Shown here: positions 1 through 6,045 of the stretch, in pieces
How positions within the stretch are numbered: the stretch's first letter is position 1
Layout of the letters: each line of letters opens with the position of its first letter
Assembly (NCBI GenBank): GCA_018667335.1
Contig: JABIVD010000058.1
Location: 1 to 64,000 of the forward strand
Origin: Rhodospirillaceae bacterium
Lineage (GTDB): Bacteria; Pseudomonadota; Alphaproteobacteria; UBA6615
DNA length: 64,000 bases
Direction of reading: 5' to 3'
The notes under the pieces: generated by a model
What the model was told of the DNA's origin: nothing
Seen by the model: the letters and a program-made list of their open reading frames with translations, nothing else
Database searches by the model: none
Program-made: the position numbers and the translations under genes

Positions 1-110
1 AACAGACGCTTCATCATGTTGGGCGCCACGGCGTAGATCAGGCCTTCGACCAACAGGACCAGCGCAAAGCCGATGAGCAGAAAGCTACCCCAAAGCAGGA
101 GTTGTCCCAT
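1..110 (-). CDS. DUF2065 small membrane protein (partial, 3' end outside window)
   Basis: Reading the minus strand from the ATG at 110 gives a protein that opens with one hydrophobic segment (about residues 3-30) followed by NMMKRL, the usual pattern of the DUF2065 (YjeT-like) family. The gene starts 5 bases after the hflC stop and lies on the same strand, the place where this family usually sits, so it is very likely co-transcribed with hflKC. Only the first 36 residues are in the window. The function of the family is not established; a single-helix inner-membrane protein associated with HflKC is an inference from position. Confidence 0.75.
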   Translation of the reverse strand, partial: MGQLLLWGSFLLIGFALVLLVEGLIYAVAPNMMKRL

Positions 111-115
111 TTTGC

Positions 116-1015
116 CTACCTATCTTCGCGACCCGACACCCGGTCGCGGCCGCCCTGCAGATCACCGAAATACTTGAAGAAGTCGCTGTTCGGGGACAGG
201 ACCATCGTGGTTCCTTCCGCGGCGAACGTCTCCTTGTAGGCTTCGAGCGAACGGAAAAACTCGAAGAACTCGGGGTCCTTGCCATAGGATTCGCCGAGGA
301 TTGCGTTACGGGTCGCATCCCCGCCACCGCGCAAGGTTTCAGCCTCGCGCTGCGCCTCGGCGACAATCTCCACCTGCTGACGATCCGCTTCGGCACGAAT
401 GCGACGTGCATTCTCTTCACCCTCGGCGCGCAGCTTGTTCGACTGTCGTTCACGTTCGGTCCGCATCCGCTCATACACGGTCTGCGAAACAGCCTCCGGC
501 AGTTCCGACCGACCGATACGGATGTCGACAACTTCGATCCCGAAACTCGAAGTTTCTATTGCGACGCCATCACGTATCGATTCCATAATGACGTTGCGTT
601 GGTCCGACAACAGGTCCGCGAGTTCACGCTGGGCAACGAATTCCTTAACCGTCGAGGTCAGGATGTTGCCGAACCGGTTTCCGAAGATCTGCTCGTCCCG
701 CACCGTCTGGAAGAATTTGAGCGGGTCGGTGATCCGGTATCGGGCGAACGCGTCAACCAGAATACGCTTCTGATCGCTCAGCAGCATTTCCTCAGCTGGC
801 GGGTCCACGCTCAAGACCCGCTTGTCATATGCGACCACATTCTGGATCAGCGGCACCTTGAAGTGCAGACCGGGTTCACGAACCGTACGCTTGTGCTCGC
901 CCAGCTGGAGGACAAGAACCTGCTGGGTCTCACTAACAGTGAACAGGCCCGAATTCAGCAACACGCCGATGACGATAATGACACCGCCGAAAATCGCGAG
1001 TTTTGCGCGGCTCAT
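116..1015 (-). CDS. hflC: HflC, SPFH-domain modulator of FtsH protease
   Basis: 299 residues. An N-terminal membrane anchor (about residues 5-25) is followed by an SPFH/band-7 domain and a charged, Arg/Glu-rich coiled coil (about 190-235) with ERERQSNKLRAEGEE, typical of HflC. HflC pairs with HflK to form a large cage in the inner membrane that surrounds FtsH and controls its access to membrane protein substrates. The start overlaps the hflK stop by 4 bases (ATGA), so translation is probably coupled. Family length is about 300, so the protein is complete. Confidence 0.95.
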   Translation of the reverse strand: MSRAKLAIFGGVIIVIGVLLNSGLFTVSETQQVLVLQLGEHKRTVREPGLHFKVPLIQNVVAYDKRVLSVDPPAEEMLLSDQKRILVDAFARYRITDPLKFFQTVRDEQIFGNRFGNILTSTVKEFVAQRELADLLSDQRNVIMESIRDGVAIETSSFGIEVVDIRIGRSELPEAVSQTVYERMRTERERQSNKLRAEGEENARRIRAEADRQQVEIVAEAQREAETLRGGGDATRNAILGESYGKDPEFFEFFRSLEAYKETFAAEGTTMVLSPNSDFFKYFGDLQGGRDRVSGREDR

Positions 1016-2166
1016 TGCTGGCCTCCCGTGTTCTCTGTTCGGTTGCGATTAAGCTCATTGAGCGGCAGGTAAGGCACGACACCCTGTCCGCCGGCGGCAC
1101 CCTCATCAATGATGACCTTGTTGGCCCCCTGGAGGACATCGCGCAACGTCTCGATATAGAGGCGCCGACGTGTCACATCGGGTGCCACCCGATACGTCTC
1201 GAAGATCTGGTCAAAGCGCGCGGCTTCACCCTGAGCTTCCTTGATCACTCGTTCGCGATACGCAGCGGCTTCTTCCAGAAGGCCGGCCGCCTCACCACGT
1301 GCGGTCGGCACGATCCGGTTGCGGTAGGCCTCGGCCTGGTTTTGCAGCCGCTCCTGATCCTGACGTGCGCGCTGCACATCATTAAAGGCGTCAATGACCG
1401 GCGGCGGCGCTTCGGTCTTCTGAAGCTGGACACGCTCGATGTTGATGCCCGCGCCATAGCCGTCGAGGATTGACTGCAGAAGGTCGCGGGTATCGTCCTG
1501 GACACCTTCACGGGCCGTGGTCAGCAAATCATCAAGCTTGGTCTGGCCGACGACTTCGCGCATGGCGCTTTCCGCCGCAGCCTTCACTGTCTCTTCCGGT
1601 GCGAGAATGTTGAACAGATAGTTTGCCGGATTCGAGATGCGCCATTGCACCGTGAAATCGACATCCGAGATGTTCTGATCACTCGTCAGCATCAGGGATT
1701 CGCCGAGAACATCGCGCGGCGAGGAAGACCGGCCGCCAATATTCTCACTGTCACGAAAGCCGATGTTCAACCGGTTGATCTGCGTCACCGCCGGGGTCAG
1801 CACCGCACCGATCGGTGTTGGCCAACGCCAGCGCAGACCCGGTGCTGTTATCTGCTCGTTCCACTTGCCAAACACCAGTTCGAGGCCGCGTTCATTCTCC
1901 TGTACCCGGTAGAAGCCGCTGAGGCCCCAGAGAACCGCCACGATGAGAATGACGATCGCTATTCCGCGACCGCTGCCAAACCCGCCCGGGATGAACCGGC
2001 GAACCTTGTCCTGGCTGCGACGTAGCATCTCTTCGATATTGGGCTGCTGTCCGCCGCCCATGCCGCCGCCGCCCGGTGGGCGTTGACCACCCCAAGGACC
2101 GCCGCCGCCGCCACTGCCGCCGCCGCCCCATGGGCCACCACCGCCTCCCTGACTGTTCCAAGGCAT
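1012..2166 (-). CDS. hflK: HflK, SPFH-domain modulator of FtsH protease
   Basis: 384 residues from the ATG at 2166, preceded by a GAGGGAA ribosome site; an upstream in-frame GTG at 2235 would add 23 residues unlike the family and is rejected. The N-terminus (MPWNSQGGGGGPWGGGG) is a Gly/Trp/Pro-rich cytoplasmic tail of about 60 residues, common in proteobacterial HflK, then a transmembrane helix (about 75-95) and an SPFH domain with a coiled coil. It partners HflC in the FtsH-HflKC complex. It is the first gene of the minus-strand operon and is divergent from mrp; the 184-bp gap between them carries a 14-bp palindrome at 2287-2300. Confidence 0.95.
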   Translation of the reverse strand: MPWNSQGGGGGPWGGGGSGGGGGPWGGQRPPGGGGMGGGQQPNIEEMLRRSQDKVRRFIPGGFGSGRGIAIVILIVAVLWGLSGFYRVQENERGLELVFGKWNEQITAPGLRWRWPTPIGAVLTPAVTQINRLNIGFRDSENIGGRSSSPRDVLGESLMLTSDQNISDVDFTVQWRISNPANYLFNILAPEETVKAAAESAMREVVGQTKLDDLLTTAREGVQDDTRDLLQSILDGYGAGINIERVQLQKTEAPPPVIDAFNDVQRARQDQERLQNQAEAYRNRIVPTARGEAAGLLEEAAAYRERVIKEAQGEAARFDQIFETYRVAPDVTRRRLYIETLRDVLQGANKVIIDEGAAGGQGVVPYLPLNELNRNRTENTGGQQ

Positions 2167-2286
2167 CGCAAATTCCCTCGTCTGTAAGCTGGCGCAAAAC
2201 CTGATGTCTGCCTTTCTGGGGCAAACGGTCACCACGCCGGGTTTATAAATCGATCACTCAGGCTTATATCACACAACATACCGTGA

Positions 2287-2300
2287 GGCGTGATCACGCC
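2287..2300. promoter_or_regulatory. 14-bp perfect palindrome between hflK and mrp
   Basis: GGCGTGATCACGCC is its own reverse complement. It lies 51 bases upstream of the mrp start and 121 bases upstream of the hflK start, in the gap between two divergent genes, where an operator would be expected. No known regulator motif is recognised. Confidence 0.3.
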
Positions 2301-2350
2301 ATGGCGACCAGTCCTAGACGATATTGTCTGTACACCCGGAGTTTTCAAGC

Positions 2351-3478
2351 ATGTCGGACCTTTCACAAGACGATATTCGCGCAGCTTTATGCACAATCGT
2401 TGATCCCGTTAGTGGCAAAGACATCATCGCCAATGACATGGTCTCGGGATTGGTGATCAAGGATCGCAACATCGGATTTGCCATCGAGATCGATCCGGCG
2501 GACGCAGACCGGATGGAACCGCTGCGCAAAGCCGCGGAACGAGCCGTCCTCGCGCTCGATGGCGTGTCGTCCGTTTCGGCAGTTCTCACCGCCCACAATG
2601 CGGCACCTGCAGCGCCCGCTGAAACCCCGGCTTCTGACGCAAACCCGGAAGCTCCCGCCAATCAGGCGCCCGCCACATCATTGCTGCCGGGCGTCGGCGC
2701 GATTGTTGCCGTGGCCAGCGGCAAGGGCGGAGTCGGTAAATCGACAACGGCCGTGAACCTCGCCGTCGCGCTGGCTTCGCTGGGGCAGCGCGTCGGCATC
2801 CTCGACGCCGATGTCTACGGACCGTCGCTGCCGCGCATGCTGGGGATATCGGAAAAACCCAAGCCCCTGGCCAATAAAAAAATCGAGCCGCTCGAGGCAC
2901 ATGGCGTGAAAGTCATGTCGATGGGTTTCATGGTTCCCGAAGACACGGCCATGGTCTGGCGTGGTCCCATGGTGATCGGGGCGCTGGAACAGATGATGCG
3001 CGAGGTCGAATGGGGCACGCTCGACGTGCTGATCGTCGACATGCCGCCGGGAACCGGCGATGCGCAGCTGACCATGGCGCAAAGGGTCCCGCTGGCCGGA
3101 GTCGTGATCGTCTCGACCCCGCAGGACATTGCACTGATCGATGCCCGCAAGGGCATGAACATGTTTGCCAAGGTCAACGTACCGGTGCTCGGGATCGTCG
3201 AGAATATGAGCATGTTCATCTGCCCGAAATGCGGTGAGCAAACAGACATCTTCGGGCATGGCGGCGCGCGGTCCGAGGCCGAACGGCTCGGTTGTGATTT
3301 CCTCGGAGAGATACCGCTCGATGTTGCAATCCGGGTTACCTCCGATTCCGGGCAACCGATCACGGCGAGCGAGCCCGACGGCCCGCACGCAGAGGCCTAC
3401 CGCGATCTCGCATCGGCCGTGCTGGCAAAAATATCGACGGCAACCACCCGACCGGCGCCGAGCATCTCGATCGACTAA
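2351..3478 (+). CDS. mrp: Mrp/ApbC/NBP35-family iron-sulfur carrier ATPase
   Basis: 375 residues from the ATG at 2351, with GGAG at 2338-2341; an upstream in-frame TTG at 2324 has no such site. Residues 1-85 form a DUF59 (MIP18-like) domain, then an Ala/Pro-rich linker, then a deviant Walker A P-loop GKGGVGKST near residue 124 and the Fe-S ligand pair CPKC near residue 290. Proteins of this family bind a 4Fe-4S cluster at the dimer interface and pass it to apo-proteins in an ATP-dependent cycle in the cytoplasm. It stands alone on the plus strand, divergent from hflK, and is followed by a long gap. Confidence 0.93.
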   Translation: MSDLSQDDIRAALCTIVDPVSGKDIIANDMVSGLVIKDRNIGFAIEIDPADADRMEPLRKAAERAVLALDGVSSVSAVLTAHNAAPAAPAETPASDANPEAPANQAPATSLLPGVGAIVAVASGKGGVGKSTTAVNLAVALASLGQRVGILDADVYGPSLPRMLGISEKPKPLANKKIEPLEAHGVKVMSMGFMVPEDTAMVWRGPMVIGALEQMMREVEWGTLDVLIVDMPPGTGDAQLTMAQRVPLAGVVIVSTPQDIALIDARKGMNMFAKVNVPVLGIVENMSMFICPKCGEQTDIFGHGGARSEAERLGCDFLGEIPLDVAIRVTSDSGQPITASEPDGPHAEAYRDLASAVLAKISTATTRPAPSISID

Positions 3479-3551
3479 CCGCGACACCCCAGCGACACCG
3501 CGTCACGCCACCGCCTCACGAAAGCGCGCACGCCCGTCGCGCTTAGTTGAT

Positions 3552-3574
3552 CGCACGACACATCTTCGTGCGTT
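3552..3574 (+). terminator. Possible terminator hairpin downstream of mrp
   Basis: CGCACGA (3552-3558) and TCGTGCG (3566-3572) make a perfect 7-bp stem with a 7-nt loop, 73 bases after the mrp stop. Only two T residues follow directly, so factor-independent termination is doubtful. Confidence 0.3.
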
Positions 3575-3644
3575 GTCGAAATGTCTATTCCGACCCAACT
3601 TCAGGCCAGAGGCGGGTCCCTGAGTTAACGCCCGCATCGCGAAA

Positions 3645-3733
3645 CCGTCGGGTCGGAGACAGGCCCTGCCCCGCAGGCCGCCGGCCACCTTGCCCCCCAA
3701 ACGGCCGGCACCAAATGGCCACCGACCCGACGG
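3645..3733. ncRNA. Candidate structured RNA or palindromic element (three-way junction)
   Basis: This lies in the 372-bp gap 3479-3850, which holds no convincing gene. Outer stem P1 is a perfect 12-bp inverted repeat, CCGTCGGGTCGG (3645-3656) with CCGACCCGACGG (3722-3733). Inside are two hairpins side by side: P2, GGCC-C-TGC / GCA-GGCC (3662-3679, one bulged C, CCC loop), and P3, GCCGGCC (3680-3686) / GGCCGGC (3703-3709), whose loop can form a further TTG/CAA pairing. The plan fits a three-way junction RNA. It ends 117 bases before the YHS gene, so it could be a 5' leader element, a free small RNA or a repeat-type palindrome. No known riboswitch consensus was recognised. The strand cannot be decided from symmetry alone. 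Confidence 0.35.
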
Positions 3734-3780
3734 ATTTCATTTCCCGCCCAGCCCCGCAGATCAGATGATTTTATTGTGCC

Positions 3781-3797
3781 GAAATCGGAATGATTTC
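3781..3797 (+). other. Small hairpin in the YHS gene leader
   Basis: GAAATC and GATTTC form a 6-bp stem with a 5-nt loop, 53 bases before the start codon at 3851. It may be part of the leader whose upstream portion is the larger inverted repeat at 3645-3733. Alone it is within chance expectation. Confidence 0.2.
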
Positions 3798-3850
3798 TGC
3801 GTGGAGGGTGTTCATGTAGCGTATCGCAACTCACATGCGGGAGAATCCAG

Positions 3851-4300
3851 ATGCGCAATGTCACCCGAGCGGCAACGTTCCTGATCATCGGCCTTTTGTT
3901 TAGCGCGCCGGCGCTGGCGGTCGAGCCCGTGTATAGCGCCGACGGGGCCGCCATCCACGGCTATGACCCGGTGGCCTACTTCACCGAGGAAAAGCCGGTC
4001 AAAGGCGACCCCGCGCACAGCGCCACTTATCAGGGGACAACCTGGCATTTCGCATCGGCGGCAAACCGCGACATGTTCACCGCCGAGCCCGAGAAATTCG
4101 CTCCGCAATATGGCGGCTACTGCGCCTGGGCCGTCGCCAACAACTACACCGCCACCACCGACCCCGACGCATGGTCGATCCGGGACGGCAAGCTCTATCT
4201 GAATTATTCGAAACTCGTGCGTGCGCGCTGGGCCATCGACAAGTCCGGCAACATCGTCTCCGCAGACCGCAACTGGCCGGGCCTGCGCGACGGCAGCTAA
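3851..4300 (+). CDS. Secreted YHS-domain protein
   Basis: 149 residues, start supported by GGGAGA 6 bases upstream. A signal peptide runs to about residue 23 (FSAPALA then VEP). The rest is a YHS-type domain of the class that begins HGYDPVAYF, with YGGYCAWA carrying the single conserved Cys (about residue 97) and DAWSIRDGKLYLNYS. The family is widespread in marine alphaproteobacteria; relatives are labelled YHS domain (seleno)protein, but here the codon is TGC, ordinary Cys. A periplasmic metal- or redox-related role is likely but unproven. It is convergent with folA, 18 bases away, and preceded by a long structured gap. Confidence 0.8.
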   Translation: MRNVTRAATFLIIGLLFSAPALAVEPVYSADGAAIHGYDPVAYFTEEKPVKGDPAHSATYQGTTWHFASAANRDMFTAEPEKFAPQYGGYCAWAVANNYTATTDPDAWSIRDGKLYLNYSKLVRARWAIDKSGNIVSADRNWPGLRDGS

Positions 4301-4318
4301 TGATCGTGAATTCGGGCC

Positions 4319-4798
4319 CTAGCGTTCGAGGGTGACAAAACTGAACGCGGGCGTGTCACCCTCGGCCGGGTGATCGACCCGCGCCGTCTCGCGCCAGATA
4401 TTACGATCGAGATCGGGAAAATGCGTATCGCCATCTGCCGCGACATGCACTTCCGTCAGGTAAATTCGTTCCGCGCGTGGCAGCGCCAGTTCATAAATTT
4501 GCGCGCCCCCGATCACCATCACCTCGGCCGCATCACCGGCGGCCAACAGCGCGGCATCAAAATCACCGACAACCGCAATATCAACACCGACAAAATCCGA
4601 ATCGCGCGTAATCACGATGTTCGTTCGCCCCGGCAATGCGCGGCCGATCGACTGGTGGGTCTTTCGCCCCATCACGATCGGATGGCCGGTTGTTGTTGCC
4701 TTGAAAAACTTCAGATCGGCGGGGATGCGCCAGGGTAGATCGCCGTCTCGACCAATCACGCCATTCTCGGCTACCGCGACAATCAGCGAAATCCGCAC
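4319..4798 (-). CDS. folA: Dihydrofolate reductase
   Basis: 159 residues from a GTG at 4798, four bases after the thyA stop; the frame extends further upstream but only as overlap with thyA, and the family begins at this point (RISLIVAVAENGVIG). Reduces dihydrofolate to tetrahydrofolate with NADPH. Visible signatures are the catalytic loop GRDGDLPW with Trp and the acidic position further on, the NADPH-binding GRKTHQSIGRALPGR and VIGGAQIYELAL. Directly downstream of thyA on the same strand: thymidylate synthase makes dihydrofolate and this enzyme recycles it, so the pair is a functional operon. Confidence 0.95.
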   Translation of the reverse strand: MRISLIVAVAENGVIGRDGDLPWRIPADLKFFKATTTGHPIVMGRKTHQSIGRALPGRTNIVITRDSDFVGVDIAVVGDFDAALLAAGDAAEVMVIGGAQIYELALPRAERIYLTEVHVAADGDTHFPDLDRNIWRETARVDHPAEGDTPAFSFVTLER

Positions 4799-4802
4799 GA
4801 AC

Positions 4803-5597
4803 TCAGACCGCGACTTTCGCCGGGATATGCGGGTGGAACCGGTACCCGTCGAGTGTGAAGTCGTCATAGTCGAACGCGAACAGGTCATCGACGTCCGGGT
4901 TCAGGGTTAACTGCGGCAACGCGTAAGGCGCGCGCTCCAACTGCGCATCAGCCTGTTCGAGGTGGTTCAGGTAAAGATGCGCATCGCCGAAGGTATGGAT
5001 GAATTCACCCACTTCCAGACCGGCGACCTGGGCCACCATCATTGTCAGCAGCGCATAGGATGCAATGTTGAACGGGACGCCGAGGAAGATGTCGGCGCTG
5101 CGCTGATACAGCTGACAAGAGAGCTTGCCGTCGGCGATGTAGAACTGAAACAGGCAATGACATGGCGGCAGGGCCATCGTGTCCACATCCGCGACATTCC
5201 AGGCTGACACGATCAGCCGACGTGAATCCGGTCGGTTTTGGATTTGATCCAGCAGATTGTGAATCTGGTCGATCCGGTTGCCGTCGGGTGCCGGCCATGA
5301 TCGCCATTGATGACCGTAGACCGGACCGAGATCACCATCGGAATCGGCCCACTCGTTCCAGATCGAAACGCCGTTGTCGTTCAGATATTTGACGTTCGTG
5401 TCGCCCTTGAGAAACCACAGCAACTCATAGATTACCGACTTCATATGGATTTTCTTGGTCGTGACGAGCGGGAAGCCGGCATTGAGATCGAAACGCATCT
5501 GGTGCCCAAATACAGACAAGGTTCCGGTCCCCGTGCGGTCGGTCCGCTCGGCACCATTGTCGCGAACATGTCGCATCAGATCGAGATATTGCTGCAT
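4803..5597 (-). CDS. thyA: Thymidylate synthase (ThyA type)
   Basis: 264 residues, the same length as the E. coli enzyme. Methylates dUMP to dTMP using methylene-tetrahydrofolate, releasing dihydrofolate. The catalytic Cys sits in [12 protein letters not shown] (about residue 146); other marks are [17 protein letters not shown] near the N-terminus, [17 protein letters not shown] and the C-terminal PAKVAV, where the last residues close the active site. First gene of the thyA-folA pair; divergent from the ssrA gene, with an 18-bp perfect palindrome in the gap between them. Confidence 0.97.
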
Positions 5598-5655
5598 CGG
5601 GTCTCAGGCCTCGGGTCGGGCTTACGTATTGCGTCAAACCTAGTCCGCAACACGA

Positions 5656-5673
5656 GTCGCGGATATCCGCGAC
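5656..5673. promoter_or_regulatory. 18-bp perfect palindrome between thyA and ssrA
   Basis: GTCGCGGATATCCGCGAC equals its own reverse complement over all 18 bases. It lies 59 bases upstream of the thyA start and 69 bases upstream of the ssrA -10 box, in the only spacer between two divergent units. A dimeric regulator operator is the simple reading; a transcript hairpin is ruled out as an ordinary stem-loop because there is no loop. The regulator is unknown. Confidence 0.35.
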
Positions 5674-5741
5674 ACCCTGTGAAAAGCCGGGCCAACGGGG
5701 ATAACCCTGCTTAGTCCTTCGTATTTGCCGTTCCGGCCCTA

Positions 5742-5747
5742 TATAAT
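5742..5747 (+). promoter_or_regulatory. Probable -10 box of the ssrA promoter
   Basis: A perfect TATAAT followed by a GC-rich discriminator (AGGGCG), the layout of stable RNA promoters. No good -35 hexamer is seen: TTCGTA at 5718-5723 gives an 18-bp spacer, while TTGCCG at 5725-5730 is too close. Transcription would start near 5754. Confidence 0.55.
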
Positions 5748-5754
5748 AGGGCGT

Positions 5755-6045
5755 CGGGTTTACTCGACTATGGCGATAAACGTTTTGCGCAATAAACGTT
5801 CGGACCCGGGGGCAGTACCCGGCGCCTCCACCATTTACCTCGGTATTTCATGGCTTACGCCATGACCGGAATGGGGGCGAAACAGGATCGACGGGCGCGT
5901 AAAGGCTGAACTTTCGTCCGGCATGGTACCACCGACATCGGGCCATATTCATAGGTGCCAACGACAATGTTGAAACCTTCGCTGTTGCCGCTTAATTAAG
6001 CGATAATAAGCGCGGTTCGGGGGGCACCGGGCAACAGAAGCCCCC
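5755..6045 (+). ncRNA. ssrA: tmRNA, circularly permuted two-piece form (alpha-tmRNA)
   Basis: The acceptor piece comes first and ends GGCGCCTCCACCA (5821-5833); the coding piece follows and begins GGGGGCGAAACAGGATCGAC at 5873. CGCCTCC (5823-5829) pairs with GGGGGCG (5873-5879) over 7 bp including the third-position G-U wobble that marks alanine charging. The spacer 5834-5872 folds into a hairpin (TCATGGC/GCCATGA) and is expected to be cut out. The tag frame starts GCC at 5957 and stops TAA at 5993: ANDNVETFAVAA, so the added tag with the charged alanine is AANDNVETFAVAA. The T-stem CCGGG/CCCGG carries a GGCAGTA loop rather than TTCRANN. The coding piece ends near the GGGGGGC/GCCCCCC stem (to about 6037). 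Both outer ends are approximate. It rescues stalled ribosomes; the next gene encodes the adaptor for tagged proteins. Confidence 0.93.

Follow-up and report, generated by a model that had tools for sequence, protein, structure and literature searches.

A conserved structured RNA downstream of mrp in one alphaproteobacterial family, a candidate new small RNA with C-rich loops

The stretch of DNA analysed here (the window) comprises 64,000 nucleotides from a Rhodospirillaceae bacterium (assembly GCA_018667335.1, contig JABIVD010000058.1, positions 1 to 64,000). Near its start, mrp and a gene for a secreted YHS-domain protein lie on the forward strand, separated by a gap that holds an inverted repeat and several promoter-like signals. 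The naming of both neighbours in the preliminary description of this locus agrees with Pfam and NCBIfam models. The features are as follows, P1 to P3 being the stems and paired cells those of an alignment of relatives.

2324-3478, + strand: mrp, encoding an ApbC/NUBPL-type P-loop NTPase (Pfam PF10609, PF01883); the exact start codon is uncertain
3547-3552, + strand: TTGATC block, 20 nt before the TTG box; putative upstream promoter or activator element
3573-3600, + strand: candidate RpoH-like promoter, TTG (3573-3575)-N19-CCA (3595-3597), then N-Y-T
3604-3740, + strand: predicted small RNA transcript with approximate ends, the start taken from the promoter-like block and the end from P1 and its T-rich flank
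3612-3635, + strand: 5' hairpin GCGGGU/GCCCGC, predicted in the fold of 3604-3745
3645-3656, + strand: P1 5' arm; 95.8% of cells paired, 5 of 12 pairs changed on both sides
3662-3679, + strand: P2 hairpin GGCC/GGCC, its loop containing CCCCGCA (3669-3675); 76.6% of cells paired
3680-3709, + strand: P3 hairpin GCCGGCC/GGCCGGC, its apical loop containing TGCCCCCC (3691-3698); 95.6% of cells paired
3722-3733, + strand: P1 3' arm with a T-rich stretch behind it; possible intrinsic terminator
3787-3812, + strand: ECF-like promoter pattern of the YHS gene, GGAAT-N16-GTGTT
3851-4300, + strand: gene for the secreted YHS-domain protein (PF04945; NF041384, YHS_seleno_dom)

The arms of P1 form an exact 12-bp inverted repeat in the mrp-YHS gap, which lengthens to 15 nt if one mismatch is allowed (3642-3656/3722-3736) and which encloses P3 (3680-3686/3703-3709) and a weaker P2 (3662-3665/3676-3679). 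These coordinates bear out the perfect outer stem with two ordered inner stems that had been described. The claim that such a stem is better than chance for a gap of 372 bp also holds, given that a perfect stem of at least 12 bp with arms within 120 nt arose in only one of 300 dinucleotide shuffles of the gap. On the + strand, positions 3640-3738 have a fold energy of -53.3 kcal/mol, the mean of the shuffles being -34.9 (z -5.2), and none of 200 shuffles folded as well; the minus strand gives z -4.5, as is expected of any inverted repeat. The longer segment 3604-3745 folds at -66.2 kcal/mol (z -3.9). By eye, a 5' hairpin of the GCGGG...CCCGC kind is found in several relatives, and it differs in the group of genomes G012, G014 and G018. 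The 12-base P1 arm recurs by chance in the genome (eight exact places among the matches listed, both arms of this element included), and the case therefore rests on conservation tests and not on the stem alone.

Two covariance models, R1 built from 11 sequences and R2 from 16, were used to follow the element through related genomes. R2 found strong matches in 16 of the 24 genomes of the window's family, in 17 copies, two of which lie in the window's own assembly; sequences used in building a model match it by construction, and R1 alone had already found G020, G022 and G016. R2 gave no match in the remaining family genomes (G004, G007, G009, G010, G015, G017, G019 and G021) and a weak extra one in G002, with neither mrp nor YHS alongside. 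By blastn, 11 of 60 genomes matched, the window's own among them, and all belong to the same family. R1 was also run at E values up to 10 against 80 named loci encoding related YHS proteins and 10 mrp loci of the family. The strong matches among named records were Rhodospirillaceae bacterium SI074_bin10 (L053) and the uncultured alphaproteobacterium K_MB42 (L054); the mrp loci of G016, G008 and G013 ranked next, and what lay beyond them was noise.

Outside the family, the covariance models found no credible match among 385 genomes of the class, in searches that both used stricter filters and so lose weak matches. Four weak R2 matches appeared there, with E values of 0.018-0.038 per genome, fewer than chance would give, and without mrp or YHS alongside; the one in L140, alone of the four in having its reading frames listed, falls within a long frame. 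On these grounds all four were judged to be chance matches. The element was not found in a plasmid collection, and in Rfam release 15 no family passed its gathering threshold at the element, where only sub-threshold microRNA matches occurred. A search of an open-access literature collection in which many journals are missing returned no paper on this RNA. The element is thus presented as a candidate new small RNA family.

The pairing was examined in a MAFFT alignment of 16 sequences (A6) that had not been adjusted to the structure. G005 does not differ from the window over the query and was omitted from A2, from A6 and from all counts of 16. P1, P2 and P3 together are paired in 92.2% of cells, compared with 86.7% in shuffles and at most 46.4% when the partners are slid. 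Nine of the 23 pairs changed on both sides (equalled by 7 of 500 shuffles), five of them in P1, three of seven in P3 and one of four in P2, where the signal is weak. Double-changed cells numbered 20 against 6.8 in shuffles, none of 500 reaching as many, in a set of relatives so few and so closely akin that cells are not independent events. A measure of further pair types was unremarkable in A6 (77 of 500 shuffles). P1 and P3 together hold 18 G-U wobble cells and 3 A-C mismatches (7 and 4 in P2). Since transcription of the other strand would swap the two kinds, this excess indicates that the + strand is the RNA under selection; an RNA from the minus strand would also fold well, but the wobble bias favours the plus strand.

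In the loops, the P2 segment carries CCCC in all 16 sequences, CCCCG in 15 and CCCCGCA in 13, and the P3 segment carries TGCCCCC in 14 of 16. The C runs are conserved in loops as they are in small RNAs with C-rich loops, their single-strandedness here being predicted from the fold. The core was more alike than its flanks in all five comparisons, as in G003 (95% against 49-80%), G002 (83% against 46-62%) and G011 (65% against 45-54%). The element is a conserved structured RNA, and the stems claimed in the preliminary description are conserved and covary in relatives. The three-way junction fared less evenly. P1 and P3 hold firmly. The 5' strand of P2, by contrast, is able to lengthen P1 in many relatives: G002, G008, G013 and G016 form a P2 hairpin of 6-7 bp, whereas in many copies of the YHS type the 5' nucleotides of P2 pair instead, or additionally, as a P1 extension of 5-7 bp, and in the window itself the P2 5' arm has an alternative partner at 3717-3720. 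As relatives favour either P2 or the P1 extension, the junction is partly variable.

All 17 copies lie directly downstream of mrp on the same strand, the match starting about 130-180 nt past the mrp match. The gene that follows is YHS in 13 copies (12 by tblastn, and G005 separately) and a convergent thyX in three (G008, G013 and G016), while in G018 the contig ends inside the next gene, which was counted as a contig cut and whose start reads like YHS. The convergent protein of G008 scores 200.8 bits against TIGR02170 (cut-off 87.9), and those of G013 and G016 were judged to be thyX by likeness. Seven genomes keep mrp without the RNA (G004, G007, G009, G010, G015, G017 and G019), and in two of these, G004 and G017, neither the RNA nor YHS follows mrp. 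The mrp-YHS pair also occurs without the RNA in other groups (Pelagibius marinus and Rhodospirillales bacterium BBD 1991-14). The constant place after mrp, the two different next genes and the mrp-YHS pairs that lack the RNA show that mrp is its constant partner and YHS is not. The fixed neighbour makes the RNA easy to find, and mrp, not YHS, is the useful search anchor.

Upstream of the element, TTG-N19-CCA is present in 14 of 16 copies, and TTGAWC-N20-TTG-N19-CCA, with fixed spacing, in 13; the block is absent from G008 and G013. A T stands three bases past CCA in all 14 copies, by eye. RpoH1 promoters are described as CTTGAA-N15-16-CCTATAT (PMC4843759), and the upstream block resembles RpoH promoters in its -35 part, its spacing and part of its -10, so that its assignment to that class is putative; the match is partial, with CCCAnYT in the place of CCTATAT. 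A pattern scan for sigma-70 promoters and terminators called neither at the RNA in the window. Before YHS, a second pattern, GGAAT-N15/16-GTGTT (TTGTT in G020), was found in 12 of the 13 aligned copies without thyX (G018 counted, G005 not) and was absent from G001 and from the three thyX copies, in a scan that covered the sequence from P1 onwards. EcfG promoters have been reported as GGAAC-N16-CGTT, in which AAC hardly ever varies and TGTT is known as a variant of the -10 (PMC7083833); owing to that near-invariance, the GGAAT site is regarded as ECF-like and not as a clean EcfG promoter. The YHS mRNA would start from it near 3820, past the RNA, and membership of the YHS protein in a regulon for envelope or general stress is possible. 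The longer motif TCGCG...[AT]GTTGA[TA]C, which takes in the TTGATC block, lies 20 nt before the TTG box (window 3535-3552) and is conserved in relatives across genera; it is a possible regulator site. G017, which has lost the RNA, appears to keep GTTGACC, and by eye a promoter-like block and a short hairpin.

Within the window's assembly, the 121-nt query matched in two places, the second on contig C48. Positions 1-6032 of C48 are collinear with window positions 7-6022 (contig C8) and 86% identical along the entire overlap, and the segment shares thyA, DHFR, YHS, the RNA and mrp with the start of the window. C48 probably comes from a sister species and was placed in this bin by mistake, a duplication being less likely; in either event, its place in the same gene neighbourhood makes it the same locus. 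The contamination reported for the assembly is 0.26%, despite the likely sister-species contig.

The preliminary description had left a leader RNA, a small RNA and a palindromic repeat as options for the element, and among these a small RNA fits best. A mobile or palindromic DNA repeat would account for the long perfect inverted repeat and for the two copies in the assembly, but the second copy sits in that collinear 6-kb homologue and each relative has a single strong copy in the same place, so we reject a repeat as extremely improbable. The proposal of a cis-acting YHS leader, either a riboswitch or a protein-binding site, draws on the 13 of 17 copies in which YHS comes next and on the absence of both RNA and YHS from G004 and G017. 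This proposal did not stand, and we now consider it highly unlikely: the RNA always follows mrp, three copies face a convergent thyX with no YHS, mrp and YHS adjoin without the RNA in Pelagibius marinus and another Rhodospirillales genome, and the ECF-like promoter comes between RNA and YHS at nearly every YHS locus. In the terms of the check proposed for such a link, the element does not always precede YHS, nor is it scattered through intergenic places.

A more serious competitor is that the element forms the 3' end of the mrp transcript, as a strong and perhaps bidirectional terminator from which an RNA may be processed, selection acting on the stopping of transcription between mrp and its neighbour. 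The invariable position after mrp agrees with this, as do the T-rich run past P1 in several copies (TTTTTT in G008 and TTTTT in G022) and the thyX genes that converge on the RNA in three genomes. A terminator requires neither conserved C-rich loops, nor a covarying P3, nor a rigid promoter-like block, and seven genomes keep mrp without the element; we therefore think this account unlikely, while taking it seriously. The conserved loops and the junction would be equally compatible with a structural or protein-sequestering RNA whose loops are bound by protein and do not pair with mRNA. That is very unlikely in our judgement, since no known family was matched and C-rich loops are typical of small RNAs that pair with mRNAs (PMC3771888, PMC5869019).

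We favour the reading that the element is an independent + strand small RNA of about 135 nt whose C-rich loops pair with G-rich mRNAs, and hold it to be rather probable, because of the covariation, the + strand wobbles, the conserved core and loops, the rigid promoter-like block, the constant position after mrp and the separate ECF-like promoter before YHS. A stress-type promoter, RpoH-like or of another class, would start transcription near 3604, and the transcript would end at P1 and the T-rich sequence behind it. The resulting RNA of 130-140 nt is predicted to fold into the 5' hairpin and a domain closed by P1, under which the P2 hairpin or bulge and P3 would present CCCCGCA and UUGCCCCCC as C-rich single strands. 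These could pair with G-rich stretches of several mRNAs, ribosome-binding sites for example, and thereby alter translation or stability. By analogy, the RNA would act in trans in the mode of GsrN and sX13, a likeness of working mode. In a crude count, TGCGGGG-N4-11-ATG is more frequent than the reversed pattern in all seven congeners, the RNA-less G004 included; the reversed pattern, as a control, leaves codon and ribosome-binding-site bias in place, and the excess is not taken as evidence of targets. A bolder version, which we think quite unlikely, is that the new post-mrp family is a stress-induced global regulator, in which the two C-rich loops would bind two sets of G-rich mRNAs and a switch between P2 and the P1 extension would hide or expose the CCCCGCA seed.

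The genes beside the RNA are mrp and YHS or thyX, and it does not lie near ecfG, nepR or phyR, a position that does not by itself exclude GsrN. The 6C RNA of Actinobacteria has two C-rich loops, like the element, and comes from a different phylum. We take it to be among the Rfam models searched, which gave no match here. In GsrN, a small RNA of the general stress response in Caulobacter, an exposed C-rich loop pairs with G-rich sites in mRNAs, the leader of katG among them (PMC5869019); small RNAs of this kind in alphaproteobacteria control stress survival. GsrN homologues lie mostly by ecfG/phyR with an EcfG promoter, the location in C. crescentus being an exception, and in the available text blastn homologues are reported only in Caulobacteraceae (PMC5869019). 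As described there, GsrN shares with the element an alphaproteobacterial host and a conserved C-rich loop, and it has a stress context; by the same descriptions, the element differs in lying after mrp, in its upstream block and in having two C-rich loops under a long closing stem. If the RNA works like GsrN, this would suggest that a regulator of this type has been retained at other genomic sites in other lineages.

In Xanthomonas, sX13 has several stem-loops with 4C/5C loops and acts on mRNAs with GGGG near the start codon (PMC3771888). Compared by description, it differs from the element in being gammaproteobacterial and in having three separate hairpins, with no closing stem mentioned in the available text. 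Rhodobacter small RNAs belong to RpoHI/RpoHII networks (PMC10673084), and the likeness, again one of descriptions, lies in an alphaproteobacterial setting and stress sigma factors, the promoter class of the element being putative. The present RNA adds a candidate family supported by covariation to a lineage known mainly from metagenomes.

Some observations concern the neighbouring genes themselves. Odd in-frame TAG flags in mrp (G007, G013, G015 and G019) proved ordinary, lying before the start or at the gene end in the loci checked. YHS is frameshifted in G001 (L009, 1740-2008) and has an in-frame stop in G002 (L006, 1712-2158), and neither locus was included in the YHS alignment A3; the gene may be decaying in these two congeners while the RNA is retained. 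In the three genomes with thyX after the RNA, beyond thyX lies a tmRNA gene of the alphaproteobacterial type (Rfam RF01849), seen at L026 1-236, L048 3810-4086 and L050 1-223.
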